A stretch of DNA of 64,000 nucleotides from Verrucomicrobiia bacterium. GTDB taxonomy: Bacteria; Verrucomicrobiota; Verrucomicrobiia; Limisphaerales; Fontisphaeraceae. The notes under the pieces were generated by a model. It had not been told where the DNA came from. It saw only the letters and a list, made by a program, of their open reading frames with translations, and ran no database searches. Location: contig JAOAIT010000009.1 in NCBI GenBank assembly GCA_026414565.1, positions 1-64,000 of the forward strand, written 5' to 3'. Shown here one piece after another: positions 50,192 through 54,321 of this stretch (positions within the stretch are counted from its first letter, which is position 1; every line of letters starts with the position of its first letter). A program made the position numbers and the translations under genes.

Positions 50192-51547
50192 TCAGCCACG
50201 CGGCCAGAGCCGGAACCAGAATTTCATGGGGGCCCGCAATAAGAGGTCCCGCAACAGCTCTTCGAAACTGGCGGCCTTGGGCTCCACCAACCGGCGGGTG
50301 CTGCACAGGGCGGCCAGGGTTACCAGCGCGGCGGCGGCAAAAAAGATGCTGTAACGATTCCACTCCACGCCGCCCCAGCGGGTGCGGAACTCCCCGATGG
50401 CATCAATCATCATGCCCCAGAGAATGGGGGCCACCCCCTGGGTGACATTCCACGCCACAGAGAAAAGGGCGAAAAAATGATTGCGCCCCATAGTGGGCAC
50501 GGAGGCCATGGCCAGGCGCGTGAACGCCATGTTGGCCGAGGCGGAGAACAGGCCCATGCACCCCAGCAGGGCGATCAGCGGCGCGGTGGAGGCCTGCAGG
50601 GCCTTGCCGGACATCAGCCACCACCCGCCTAAAATCAGCACATAAACCCCGAATGCCAGGGCCAGCACCGGTTTGCTGCCGGCCGCATCCAGGCGGGAGC
50701 CAAACAGCCACAGACTGCCCATGCCCCCCAGATAGAGCGTGGTGGAAAGCAGCAGAATCCGTCCTTCGGAAAGGGCCGCTTCGGTCTTCAGAAAGGCCAC
50801 GGGAAAGGCTTGCATGCCGCCATAAACCACCGCCCAAAGCATGACGGTGACGAGCAGCCGCTGAAAAGGCGCATGCCGCAAAATCGCCCCCCAGGGAACT
50901 TCGCCGGTGCTGCCGGCGGGTTCTTGCGGCACGGGGACATCCGGGATGCGTTTGAGGAAGCTCAGGCTGGCGGCGCCGGCCACGGCACTGAAGGCAAAGA
51001 GCAAACTGAATTGATACGGGTGGGGTTCGCTGCCCAAAAACAGCGCGGCCAGTAAAAAAACCATGATGCTGCCCAGATTCACCACGGCGGCATCCCGTGC
51101 CAGGTAGCGGCCGCGGATGGATTCCGGTACGAGGCTGGTGATCCACGGCAGCCACGCGCAACTGGATATGCCACGCGAAAGATTGAAGCCAAACAGCAGA
51201 AACAACAGCAGCGCCAACTGGGTACCGCGGTCCAGGAATGCCCCCAACAAGGGCACTGCGGCCATTGCAAAGATGAAGGCCACCCGGATGCCCCAGCCGG
51301 CATACACAAACCGGCGAAAACCGAGGCGCGGGATGTATTGGGCGGCGGGGATTTGAAAGATGACCAGCAGGGGCATCATGCTCACCACCACCCCGAGGAC
51401 GGTGGCACTGCCGCCGAGGCTCTTGGCATAGAGCACCATGGGGCTGCTCAACACAATCTGGAATGACAGCGCGTTGAACAGCGCAAACCAGTAGGCATGA
51501 TGAAAGCCGGGCGGCAGGCGGGGCTTTTCTGGAGCAGCGTCAGACAT
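50192..51547 (-). CDS. MFS transporter
   Basis: This 451-residue protein has about 12 hydrophobic segments. The inter-domain region carries SLVPESIRGRYLARDAAVVN, an MFS-type cytoplasmic loop (the ESxRGR pattern). Substrate is unknown. It lies 29 bases downstream of the sugar-nucleotide cassette and may be part of the same transcript, but this does not by itself assign a sugar substrate. Confidence 0.85.
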   Translation of the reverse strand: MSDAAPEKPRLPPGFHHAYWFALFNALSFQIVLSSPMVLYAKSLGGSATVLGVVVSMMPLLVIFQIPAAQYIPRLGFRRFVYAGWGIRVAFIFAMAAVPLLGAFLDRGTQLALLLFLLFGFNLSRGISSCAWLPWITSLVPESIRGRYLARDAAVVNLGSIMVFLLAALFLGSEPHPYQFSLLFAFSAVAGAASLSFLKRIPDVPVPQEPAGSTGEVPWGAILRHAPFQRLLVTVMLWAVVYGGMQAFPVAFLKTEAALSEGRILLLSTTLYLGGMGSLWLFGSRLDAAGSKPVLALAFGVYVLILGGWWLMSGKALQASTAPLIALLGCMGLFSASANMAFTRLAMASVPTMGRNHFFALFSVAWNVTQGVAPILWGMMIDAIGEFRTRWGGVEWNRYSIFFAAAALVTLAALCSTRRLVEPKAASFEELLRDLLLRAPMKFWFRLWPRG

Positions 51548-51576: not shown

Positions 51577-52401
51577 CTAAAACCCGCGCAGGGCGGTGCT
51601 GGAGCGGGCCGGCAGCCCGGGCGCGGGTGTTCGTTTGAGCACCACATACTCCAGCCCGTGGGCCTCACAATAGGCGCGTTTTTCCGGTTTGTCTCCGTCT
51701 TCGTTGACGGCATAGATGTGCGGTTGCAGACGCCGGATTTCCGGCTCGGCATCGAGCCAGCCCCACCCCGTGGTGAGCACGGCTTGCGTGACGTAGCGGA
51801 TGCTGCCCACCATGTAGCGGCGTTCGTCCTGGCAGAGCAGGGGATGCCCCGCGCCTTTCAAATGGCGCACATTCGCATCATTGCCCACCGCCACGTATAG
51901 ATCCCCCAGGGCCGAGACTTCCTCAAAAAAACGCACATGCCCGGAGTGCAGCCAGTCGTAGCAGCCGGTGACAATGACCTTTTTTCTTTCCGGATGAACG
52001 GGGCCGGCCGGCGGCTCGGGAAAACCGCTCAATGCCGCCGCGGCCAGCGGCATGGCACGCCATCCGTGCCGTGCGCAGAATTGTTGGCGCGCGGGTGAAT
52101 CTTCCTCCTCAGGATAAACCCAGATGGCAGGGGGGACGGGCGCCGCCCGCTCCAGGACCGGCAGCCCGCTGGCAGCCTGAATGACTGTCACCGAATCCAC
52201 ATAACGGATGGCGCTTAAAAAATAGTGGCGCTCTGCCAGGGGAAATTTCACGGGATTGCCCGTGGCCTGGGCCGTCGAGGCATCGTCCCACAACAGCACC
52301 CGCACCGGCCCCAGCCGCGCGGCCTCCTCCAAAAGGCGCACGTGGCGCGAGCGCAGATCATCAAAAGGCCCCGAGACAATGACCTGAACGTTGTGCTTCA
52401 T
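51577..52401 (-). CDS. tandem cytidylyltransferase-like nucleotidyltransferase (N-domain decayed)
   Basis: This 274-residue protein has two copies of the nucleotidyltransferase alpha/beta fold. The C-terminal copy (about 141-274) has an intact HxGH motif (GCYDWLHSGH, 146-155) and an SSTALR end motif (268-272 region). The N-terminal copy (about 5-130) aligns with GPFDDLRSRH (11-20), losing the first His and the Gly, and shares the ERxYxxxxIRYV block (57-67 vs 193-203). The C-domain probably transfers a nucleotide to a sugar phosphate, as in RfaE2/HldE-type enzymes; the N-domain is probably structural. It ends the epimerase-kinase-nucleotidyltransferase cassette. Confidence 0.8.
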   Translation of the reverse strand: MKHNVQVIVSGPFDDLRSRHVRLLEEAARLGPVRVLLWDDASTAQATGNPVKFPLAERHYFLSAIRYVDSVTVIQAASGLPVLERAAPVPPAIWVYPEEEDSPARQQFCARHGWRAMPLAAAALSGFPEPPAGPVHPERKKVIVTGCYDWLHSGHVRFFEEVSALGDLYVAVGNDANVRHLKGAGHPLLCQDERRYMVGSIRYVTQAVLTTGWGWLDAEPEIRRLQPHIYAVNEDGDKPEKRAYCEAHGLEYVVLKRTPAPGLPARSSTALRGF

Positions 52402-52404
52402 GGT

Positions 52405-53220
52405 TCAGAGGCGCAGGGAGGCATGAAAGGCGCCGGGCACAGGCTTTACGGAGACCACGTAAAGATAACCCCCACCACAGCCGGAATACATTGCGCCGGC
52501 GTAACGGGCCTGGTAATAGCGTAAAATGGCGCCCAGGTCCACCGTCAGCGTGGGATGCCGCACGGTGTGGGGCAGCAGATGCTCCCAACACTCCATGCAC
52601 TCATTAAAGGAGCGTCCCAGTGCGGCGGCATCCCGCGCCAGAATGGCGGCGAAACAATCTTTGCCGGTTTGGCCCAGCCGCCGCACCCAGGCCGGCTCCA
52701 GATTTTTTTCGCCCAAAGGATGGTAGCCCTCCGGTCGCGGCGCGATGGGGATAATGTGCAGGACCTGGGCCAGCCAGTGGACGATATCCGGATCACGGCA
52801 GGTTTCGATATGTTGGGGAAAGATGCCGCCTTCGTGCCGGGCATCGTAGTCCAGGCGGTTGATGCCGGGGTAGAGCAAACCGATCATGTCCTGCGAGCCG
52901 GAAGGATCCGGCCGCCCGGCGTTTTCTGCGGCATACAATGTCCGCACCAAATCAGCGGGATTACCGTCAGGCAGGCGATCCTGCCACAACCGCCGGGCCA
53001 CCGCCCGGGTGCCGGTGGCCAGTCCGGAGCGGTCCATCCAGGGGGCATCCGGCTGCACGCCCACCACCACCATGCTGCCGGGCGGCTCCGGATTCAGGCG
53101 GGACACAAAGGGCTGGTCAATCCAGCCCCCCGCCAGGGCCAGCCGATACGGCAGGTGGCCCCACGGCGGGGGCGGCGGAATGGGGCCGGTGGGACTCAGG
53201 TTGGCGTCCGACATGCCCAT
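52405..53220 (-). CDS. GHMP-family sugar kinase-like protein (shortened)
   Basis: This 271-residue protein shows the order of HddA/fucokinase-type GHMP kinases: motif 1 YRLALAGGWID (25-35), motif 2 SGLATGTRA (65-73), SGSQD (107-111) and motif 3 YSGCGGGYLYVVS (245-257). The spacing between motifs 1 and 2 is only about 35 residues, much less than usual, and motif 2 lacks the classic GLGSS serines. It may phosphorylate a sugar or may have changed activity. It lies 3 bases after the epimerase and 3 before the nucleotidyltransferase. Confidence 0.68.
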   Translation of the reverse strand: MGMSDANLSPTGPIPPPPPWGHLPYRLALAGGWIDQPFVSRLNPEPPGSMVVVGVQPDAPWMDRSGLATGTRAVARRLWQDRLPDGNPADLVRTLYAAENAGRPDPSGSQDMIGLLYPGINRLDYDARHEGGIFPQHIETCRDPDIVHWLAQVLHIIPIAPRPEGYHPLGEKNLEPAWVRRLGQTGKDCFAAILARDAAALGRSFNECMECWEHLLPHTVRHPTLTVDLGAILRYYQARYAGAMYSGCGGGYLYVVSVKPVPGAFHASLRL

Positions 53221-53223
53221 CGG

Positions 53224-54321
53224 TTAGTACAAGTCCTGCACCGTGTGCTCGCCTGCCTGGCGCTTGCGGTACTGCTCTTCAATCCACTGGTAGGTGGTTT
53301 TCAAGCCCTCCCGCAACGGAATGGACGGCTCCCAGCCGAGCATTTGTTTGATGAAGGTGTTGTCGCTGTTGCGCCCCGCCACGCCGCGGGGGGCGTCCAG
53401 TTTGTAATGCCGCTGGAGTTTGACGCCGCCGATGGATTCCACCAGCGACACCAGATCATTGATGGAGATCATTTCACTGGTGCCGAGGTTGATGGGCGTA
53501 GCCTTCAGGGCATCCGTGTGCATGATCATGTCAATGCCTTTGATGCAATCATCAATGTACATGAAGCTGCGGGTCTGCGTGCCGTCGCCCCAGATTTCAA
53601 TTTCCAGCCGGCCGGTGGCCTTGGCTTCGATGACTTTGCGGCAGATGGCGGCCGGGGCCTTCTCGCGCCCGCCATCCCACGTGCCCCAAGGGCCATAGAC
53701 GTTGTGAAAACGGGCAATGAATGTGGCCAGCCCGCGCTCGGCGGTGTACTCCTGGCAGAACATTTCTGACATCAATTTTTCCCAGCCGTAACCGCGCTCG
53801 GCCATGGCCGGGTAGGCATCGGACTCTTTGAGGGCGCGGCAATGGGGGTCTTTTTGCAATTCCGTGTTGTAGGCGCAGGCCGAGCTGGAGAAGAAATACC
53901 GGCGCACGCCGGCGCGCCAGGCATGTTCAATCAGATGGGTGTTGATCAAGATGCTGCGCAGGCATTCGACGCGGAATCGCTCGATGAAACCCATGCCGCC
54001 CATGTCGGCCGCCAGATTATAGACTTCGGCGGCGCCTTCCACGGCGCGGCGGCAGTTCTCCTCCACCCGGAGGTCCAGGCATAATTCCTCCACCCCCGGC
54101 ACGCGCTGATACCAGTGCGGCAGGGGCTTGCGGTCCACGGCCCGGATGCGCTGGTAGCCGAGGTCTTTGAAATAACGCACCAGCGCCCCGCCAATAAACC
54201 CCCCGGCACCGGTAACCAAAATCAGCTCGTCTTTGGCCGCGCGGTTTTCCACCCAGGGACGCGCCGCCGGCTGGCCGGGGGCGGCGCAGGTGTTTGGATT
54301 TGCGTGTGGTTGCATGCTCAT
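53224..54321 (-). CDS. NAD-dependent sugar-nucleotide epimerase, GDP-mannose 3,5-epimerase-like
   Basis: This 365-residue SDR protein has the NAD-binding VTGAGGFIGG (about 36-45). Family blocks are NLAADMGGMGFI, FSSSACAYNTE (with the cysteine expected to act in GME), the YGWEK catalytic tyrosine/lysine pair (ERGYGWEKLMSE), RFHNVYGPWGTWDGG and GTQTRSFMYIDD. It probably isomerises a nucleotide-bound sugar such as GDP-mannose. It starts the tight cassette with the kinase-like and nucleotidyltransferase genes, indicating a pathway for an unusual surface sugar. Confidence 0.85.
   Translation of the reverse strand: MSMQPHANPNTCAAPGQPAARPWVENRAAKDELILVTGAGGFIGGALVRYFKDLGYQRIRAVDRKPLPHWYQRVPGVEELCLDLRVEENCRRAVEGAAEVYNLAADMGGMGFIERFRVECLRSILINTHLIEHAWRAGVRRYFFSSSACAYNTELQKDPHCRALKESDAYPAMAERGYGWEKLMSEMFCQEYTAERGLATFIARFHNVYGPWGTWDGGREKAPAAICRKVIEAKATGRLEIEIWGDGTQTRSFMYIDDCIKGIDMIMHTDALKATPINLGTSEMISINDLVSLVESIGGVKLQRHYKLDAPRGVAGRNSDNTFIKQMLGWEPSIPLREGLKTTYQWIEEQYRKRQAGEHTVQDLY

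Follow-up and report, generated by a model that had tools for sequence, protein, structure and literature searches.

Layout of the cassette

The window, a stretch of 64,000 nucleotides from Verrucomicrobiia bacterium (assembly GCA_026414565.1, contig JAOAIT010000009.1, positions 1 to 64,000), contains three adjoining genes which encode a GDP-mannose 3,5-epimerase-like protein (GME), a short GHMP-type protein (mini-GHMP) and a tandem nucleotidyltransferase (NT2). They form a conserved cassette, which may constitute a salvage route for a sugar of the L-galacto configuration. The original prediction for this region, a GME-like epimerase, a short GHMP protein and a tandem nucleotidyltransferase with gaps of 3 bases, was confirmed: all three open reading frames (ORFs) are present on the (-) strand, with 3 bp from stop to next start at both junctions. 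The genome (G000) has about 4.3 Mb and is 97% complete. The features of the cassette are:

53224..54321, - strand: GDP-mannose 3,5-epimerase-like SDR (GME), 365 aa, first cassette gene
52405..53220, - strand: mini-GHMP protein, 271 aa, predicted fucokinase-like fold minus most of the segment between motif 1 and P-loop
53101..53151, - strand: mini-GHMP motif 1, PYRLALAGGWIDQPFVS; R26, W33 and D35 correspond to FKP R592, W599 and D601
53005..53028, - strand: mini-GHMP degenerate P-loop, SGLATGTR; Gly70 at the position of the FKP metal-binding Ser719
52888..52899, - strand: mini-GHMP GSQD motif; Q110 and D111 correspond to FKP Q761 and D762 (general base)
52468..52485, - strand: mini-GHMP motif 3, SGCGGG (SGAGGGG in fused relatives)
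51577..52401, - strand: NT2, tandem nucleotidyltransferase of the RfaE-II/glycerol-3-phosphate cytidylyltransferase (HIGH) superfamily, 274 aa
52012..52401, - strand: NT2 domain 1, degenerate, RSRH in place of HxGH, no Pfam match
51580..52011, - strand: NT2 domain 2, intact HSGH and C-terminal RSST

Distribution and conservation of gene order

In the order to which the window genome belongs (58 genomes), mini-GHMP was found in 19 genomes, 16 with the trio type and three with a fused nucleotidyltransferase-mini-GHMP type (37-40% identity). The trio proteins are 54-94% identical to their orthologues within the order. Full NT2 (E<1e-90) was present in 14 of the 16 trio-type genomes and in none of the 42 others.

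More widely, one scan of named genomes gave at least 539 mini-GHMP relatives among 595 pattern matches, and the best 80 of these (L020-L099) were used as the locus set for the neighbourhood counts out of 80. The presence of genes was determined by tblastn within 10-kb flanks, with a cut-off of E up to 1e-15 for neighbours. Gene calling had missed NT2 in several loci (for example L022, L034 and L061); the NT2 counts rest on tblastn or whole-genome searches. According to the record titles, the 80 loci cover at least nine phylum-level groups, namely Verrucomicrobiota, Planctomycetota, Acidobacteriota, Chloroflexota, Latescibacterota, Lentisphaerota, Kiritimatiellota and others (12 rows without group).

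GME was detected in 76 and NT2 in 53 of the 80 loci. Where the sequence reaches far enough to tell, 67 of 74 loci have GME immediately upstream of mini-GHMP and on its strand, 48 of 72 have NT2 immediately downstream, and 41 of 66 show both arrangements. Across 45 loci, the pairwise distances found for each of the three proteins are correlated with those of the other two (r 0.54-0.60); neither of the two correlations that involve mini-GHMP was reached in any of 2000 permutations. Because of the orthologue identities within the order and the recurrence of the same gene order in several phyla, the cassette is not a chance arrangement. Thus, the possibility that the genes are not conserved together, which the original prediction had raised, does not hold.

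The mini-GHMP protein

The window mini-GHMP has no match in Pfam, GHMP models included. Among 54 aligned members, one matches GHMP_kinases_C at E up to 1, and the fused relative L017 matches this model at E 6.5e-4, just under the cut-off score. A profile of the 54 members found the fucokinase FKP as best solved structure (E 0.0037), with the alignment confined to motifs 1 and 3. The AlphaFold model (pLDDT 88.9) was compared using VIA-align with the structures among Foldseek's own matches; the heptokinase WcbL (4usk) gave Z 22.1 and a root-mean-square deviation of 3.4 over 240 aligned residues, and FKP (9iip) Z 19.8 and 3.8 over 234. As modelled, mini-GHMP has the GHMP fold.

For FKP it is reported that W599, D601, T602, Q761 and D762 contact fucose, with R592 near O1, that E751 and D762 are essential, and that, by the mechanism given there, the metal is bound by S719 (PMC11982464). 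The mini-GHMP equivalents of R592, W599, D601, Q761 and D762 do not vary among the 95 trio-type loci. A Glu near the position of E751 is likewise present in all 95, matched by position only; in the window protein E99 stands 12 residues before D111, and in FKP E751 stands 11 before D762. Mini-GHMP thus carries the fucokinase side chains at R592, W599, D601, E751, Q761 and D762.

The short kinase had been said to lack a normal phosphate loop. The loop is indeed degenerate, as residues 65-71 read SGLATGT where fucokinases carry SGLGTSS or SGLGASS, and the GLGSS-type loop of GHMP motif 2 is absent; the larger change, however, concerns the distance from motif 1 to the loop. It was scored by pattern in 68 of 72 rows (four unscored) and amounts to 31 residues in 67 of the 68 (19 in one row) versus 112-115 in six full-length fucokinases. 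Between P-loop and QD, 66 of 68 rows have a spacing of 45 (five of the six fucokinases have 47 and one has 62), and between QD and motif 3 all 68 have 135 (all six fucokinases have 137). About 84 residues are therefore missing, and the interval between motif 1 and P-loop is the only one clearly shortened. Since the other spacings and the sugar-pocket residues are kept, mini-GHMP resembles, by sequence, a fucokinase that has lost the segment bearing most of the adenine pocket.

An L-fucokinase is defined by the transfer of phosphate from ATP to O1 of L-fucose; mini-GHMP may have lost the use of ATP with the missing segment. A truncated gene or pseudogene was ruled out by the constant spacing of 31 residues and by 52 other trio-type rows, which are 62-73% identical to the window mini-GHMP across phyla.

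Relatives in which one nucleotidyltransferase domain is naturally fused to mini-GHMP (L017:1081-2232, L018, L019) parallel FKP. These fusions adjoin ORFs resembling glycosyltransferases by eye, and GME was not found in their flanks. Of 30 pattern matches in a viral scan, two were relatives, and these belong to the other branch, that of the fusion type. On the first contig (IMG/VR, 94.8 kb; L100:4998-5723), a stand-alone mini-GHMP follows a DnaB-type helicase gene and overlaps the end of a ThyX gene, a context of DNA replication rather than sugar. The second (L101:4590-5609) carries a fused nucleotidyltransferase-mini-GHMP ORF, which aligned to the window protein only up to query residue 139. 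Locus L080 has, after the first cassette, two more ORFs in reversed order, one of the GHMP family (388 aa, fusion-sized) and one of the GME family (327 aa).

The epimerase

GME matches the plant (Arabidopsis) GDP-mannose 3,5-epimerase (GM35E; PDB 2c59) over 325 residues with E 3.6e-86. The residues C145 and K217 are described as catalytic in this family, and together with Y174/K178 and the Cys-acidifying R306 they help to tell GM35E apart from GMER and GalE (PMC8787198). All of them are present in the window GME. Among 88 loci, of which some contigs were counted twice, the equivalents of C145, Y174 and K178 are kept in 82, 82 and 82, that of K217 in 83 and that of R306 in 88; the remaining loci have an alignment gap or are uncovered. 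GM35E is defined by the conversion of GDP-D-mannose to GDP-L-galactose, a reaction which the cassette GME may catalyse in one direction or the other.

A search of the order (E up to 1e-90) detected the cassette-type GME (71% identity or more) in 14 of the 16 trio-type genomes versus two of the 42 others, one of these two carrying the fused mini-GHMP type. A second GME group, at 58-61% identity, occurs in eleven genomes, including G012 (trio-type mini-GHMP) and G019 (fused mini-GHMP). A cassette-type GME (71%) was also seen in a genome without any mini-GHMP match (G035:C364:85849-86850).

The nucleotidyltransferase

The halves of NT2 align at 30% identity (E 8e-18) and represent a tandem duplication. 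Domain 2 carries HSGH and matches CTP_transf_like (PF01467, E 5e-9), which places it in the HIGH superfamily; in domain 1 HxGH is lost and no Pfam match was obtained at E up to 0.01. The GDP-fucose pyrophosphorylase family (PF07959) is not matched by NT2, PF01467 being found instead. In the route proposed below, the nucleotide joined to the sugar would most likely be GDP.

HldE/RfaE domain II and glycerol-3-phosphate cytidylyltransferase belong to the same superfamily as domain 2. NT2, in contrast, scores under the equivalog cut-offs (76.9 bits for TIGR02199, the HldE/RfaE-II equivalog, with a cut-off of 181.5) and is a tandem protein with a degenerate first domain. A GDP-heptose route was considered and rejected: besides these scores, no heptose family was present among the 25 families listed in a Pfam tally of the flanking genes (115 ORFs, 126 families matched). 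Among the kinases of D-glycero-D-manno-heptose, WcbL and HddA, the former tops the structural scores of the mini-GHMP model; the reading was rejected nonetheless because the sugar-pocket residues kept in mini-GHMP are those of the fucokinase.

Gene neighbourhood

A regulator of the AraC family is encoded near the cassette in 25 of the 80 loci, 22 times divergently and just upstream of GME. Less frequent neighbours are a ManC-type mannose-1-phosphate guanylyltransferase (11 loci), the RbsD/FucU mutarotase family (11), GH29 alpha-L-fucosidase (10, some several kb off), a LacI regulator (9) and fucose-1-phosphate guanylyltransferase (GFPP; 5). GH29 heads the Pfam tally of the 115 flanking ORFs with eight matches, followed by LacI with six. 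With 284 GH29 matches counted in 30 genomes of this kind, about 0.19 would be expected in the 115 ORFs, and the probability of the excess is 3e-11, assuming independence and about one gene per kb. GH29 is common in mini-GHMP genomes (28 of 30); the window genome has two copies, both elsewhere than the cassette.

These neighbours bear on a biosynthetic role, in which GME would supply a surface glycan with GDP-L-galactose or GDP-L-gulose derived from GDP-mannose, with mini-GHMP and NT2 recycling or editing the freed L-sugar. The GM35E of Methylacidiphilum fumariolicum has been proposed, from genomic context, to act in lipopolysaccharide (LPS) synthesis, and GM35E activity is reported in an antibiotic pathway (PMC6678494). 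The mannose-1-phosphate guanylyltransferase in 11 of the 80 loci would fit as well. On the other hand, the sole glycosyltransferase family among the 25 flanking families listed is WecG (2), while alpha-L-fucosidase and LacI lead, and the AraC gene is divergent and upstream in 22 loci. A divergent AraC gene is typical of sugar-responsive operons. Hence, we consider the biosynthetic role doubtful, though the least improbable of the alternatives.

In the window, a gene for an MFS transporter (50192..51547, - strand) lies on the same strand 29 bp downstream of NT2 and is probably the last gene of the operon. It is found at the same place in a genome of the same genus (95% identity over 215 residues) and was seen in this genus only; a search of the 80 loci with the cut-off of 1e-15 gave no match for it. 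A scan for promoters and terminators gave nothing informative. In locus L089, an L-fucose isomerase-family gene (L089:1810-3522) is oriented divergently from the cassette.

Exchange of NT2 and GFPP

The relation of NT2 to GFPP and FKP was determined in 50 mini-GHMP genomes, a sample enriched for loci in which gene calling saw no nucleotidyltransferase; GFPP/FKP was counted as present when the Pfam cut-off (PF07959) was passed. NT2 only was found in 18 genomes, both in six, GFPP/FKP only in 23 and neither in three. Accordingly, GFPP/FKP passes the cut-off in 23 of 26 genomes without NT2 versus six of 24 with NT2 (Fisher p=8e-6, ignoring phylogeny), which suggests that the two tend to replace each other. 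In the order, the two trio-type genomes without NT2 (G002, G048) carry a strong stand-alone GFPP (E 2e-55 and 2e-59), and of the 42 non-trio genomes G033 alone has one (E 1e-50). In six genomes lacking NT2 (G076, G086-G090), GFPP belongs to a full-length FKP whose kinase motifs are intact.

The window genome encodes a stand-alone full-length fucokinase of 456 aa (L122:5901-7268; domain match C59:88906-90033, 47% identity), and a PF07959 search of this genome gave no match. NT2 could be the missing partner of this fucokinase. An ordinary GDP-L-fucose salvage pair, i.e., a fucokinase and a GFPP equivalent, with the adjoining GME serving something else, would account for this genome and for the partial exchange of NT2 with GFPP/FKP. 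GME, however, is the steadier partner of mini-GHMP (76 versus 53 of the 80 loci for NT2), and its cassette type follows the trio in the order (14 of 16 versus two of 42 genomes), so that such a pair has only a small probability, the lowest of the readings considered here.

The original prediction had allowed for the genes belonging to a known pathway with full-length members. Full-length FKP/GFPP do occur in part of the genomes, but mini-GHMP is not displaced by them.

Proposed route

We give an even chance to the cassette serving the salvage of L-fucose or L-galactose, sugars of L-galacto configuration, by a route resembling the Leloir pathway; the substrate, nucleotide, phosphoryl donor and direction of this route are what we infer. 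Mini-GHMP would phosphorylate O1 of L-fucose or L-galactose. NT2, or GFPP/FKP in other genomes, would then join the sugar-1-phosphate to a nucleotide, and GME would epimerise C3 and C5 and so link the L-galacto to the D-manno series. In the L-galactose case, GDP-L-galactose would become GDP-D-mannose, which a mannose-1-phosphate guanylyltransferase could open to mannose-1-phosphate and GTP. Kinase, nucleotidyltransferase and epimerase, whose genes are co-conserved, would thereby act in series on one sugar.

The earlier proposal of a cassette for a non-standard activated sugar stands insofar as the genes are co-conserved and match no standard annotated route; the sugar, left unplaced there, is now pointed to as belonging to GDP-L-fucose/L-galactose salvage. 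L-Fucose or L-galactose is preferred over a heptose or an unplaced sugar because of the fucokinase-type sugar pocket, the neighbouring alpha-L-fucosidase and FucU mutarotase genes and the exchange of NT2 with GFPP.

Several observations weigh against this salvage route. Within the window, no GFPP, mutarotase or fucosidase gene is located beside the trio. The best-scoring structural match of mini-GHMP is the heptokinase, above the fucokinase. The fucose contact T602 of FKP corresponds to Gln36, and S719 is replaced by Gly in 66 of the 95 loci, the other 29 having Ser. The adenine in FKP was modelled against I669, L722, M645, D644 and P666 (PMC11982464); D644, M645, P666 and I669 fall in the segment missing from mini-GHMP, L722 sitting after the P-loop and outside it. 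Concerning the exchange, a tree-aware test was not significant, with only four supported pairs, and three of the 50 genomes have neither NT2 nor GFPP/FKP. Moreover, five of the 14 NT2 trio genomes of the order also pass PF07959 via divergent FKP-like proteins (about 1000 aa, E 1e-11 to 1e-15), and divergent FKP-like PF07959 proteins are carried by three non-trio genomes other than G033. A fucokinase-domain match (E<1e-35) was found in 31 of 66 mini-GHMP genomes, or 29 of 61 minus known duplicates (partial in G071, with internal stops in G094), the window genome being among them. Unless it differs in substrate, donor or role, a second fucose kinase should be redundant, and mini-GHMP as sole fucose kinase is unsupported as a general rule. 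FucI-family matches exceed the cut-off in 28 of the 50 genomes; thus, the route does not simply supply a missing fucose pathway, and a simple replacement of FucI is unsupported.

Mini-GHMP may therefore prefer another sugar, use another phosphoryl donor or act as a sensor. For FKP, the affinity for L-galactose is reported to be about 100-fold lower than for L-fucose (PMC11982464). With regard to the donor, mini-GHMP could represent a new class of phosphotransferase, a fucokinase minus the adenine segment which takes a small donor such as pyrophosphate. The pyrophosphate would be the by-product of the partner nucleotidyltransferase, and sugar plus one GTP would yield GDP-sugar plus phosphate, feeding the L-sugar into a route to GDP-mannose. 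We regard this scheme as unlikely. A literature search on pyrophosphate-dependent GHMP kinases found no paper.

As a sensor, mini-GHMP would be a non-enzymatic pseudokinase which binds L-fucose or fucose-1-phosphate and regulates the GME or nucleotidyltransferase step, by analogy to yeast Gal3p, a sugar-sensing pseudokinase. The loss of the adenine-pocket segment, the Gly at the metal position in 66 of 95 loci and the co-occurring fucokinase domain are consistent with this role. Nevertheless, we judge it quite improbable: the equivalents of D762 and R592 and the Glu near E751 are invariant, while a pure sensor could lose its general base, and the fusion of mini-GHMP to a single nucleotidyltransferase domain suggests a catalytic pair. 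Because the catalytic residues are invariant, an enzyme is favoured.

Relation to known systems

The salvage system of FKP, or L-fucokinase, and GDP-fucose pyrophosphorylase resembles the cassette in sugar pocket, catalytic base, motif order and the partnership with a sugar-1-phosphate nucleotidyltransferase, and GFPP stands in for NT2 in some cassette loci. The cassette differs by the gap of about 84 residues in its GHMP protein, by an NT2 of the HIGH superfamily and by the inclusion of GME in the unit. GM35E, both plant GME and bacterial MfGM35E, shares the Cys/Lys, Tyr/Lys and Arg residues with the cassette GME in addition to the strong sequence match; unlike MfGM35E, for which a role in LPS is proposed, the cassette GME is accompanied by a kinase-like protein and NT2 and, in part of the other genomes, by fucosidase and FucU-family genes. 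With the Leloir pathway (galK/galT/galE/galM) the cassette shares the logic of GHMP protein, nucleotidyl transfer and SDR epimerase, with a mutarotase-family gene in some loci, but the proposed sugar is an L-sugar, the series is that of GDP, and the transferase is of an NTP-dependent type unlike GalT. The L-galactose route of Luteolibacter is described as beginning with a dehydrogenase (PMC12632266).

In the literature searched (titles and abstract starts), no description of the cassette or of an adenine-less GHMP protein was found. Its parts are relatives of known families, and the combination and the trimmed GHMP protein are undescribed in that literature. The cassette spans at least nine phylum-level groups, and the mini-GHMP family is nearly invisible to Pfam. 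If the proposed route is correct, bacterial GM35E would gain a salvage or catabolic role beyond the proposed LPS and antibiotic synthesis, and mini-GHMP would be a GHMP protein working without the usual adenine pocket.

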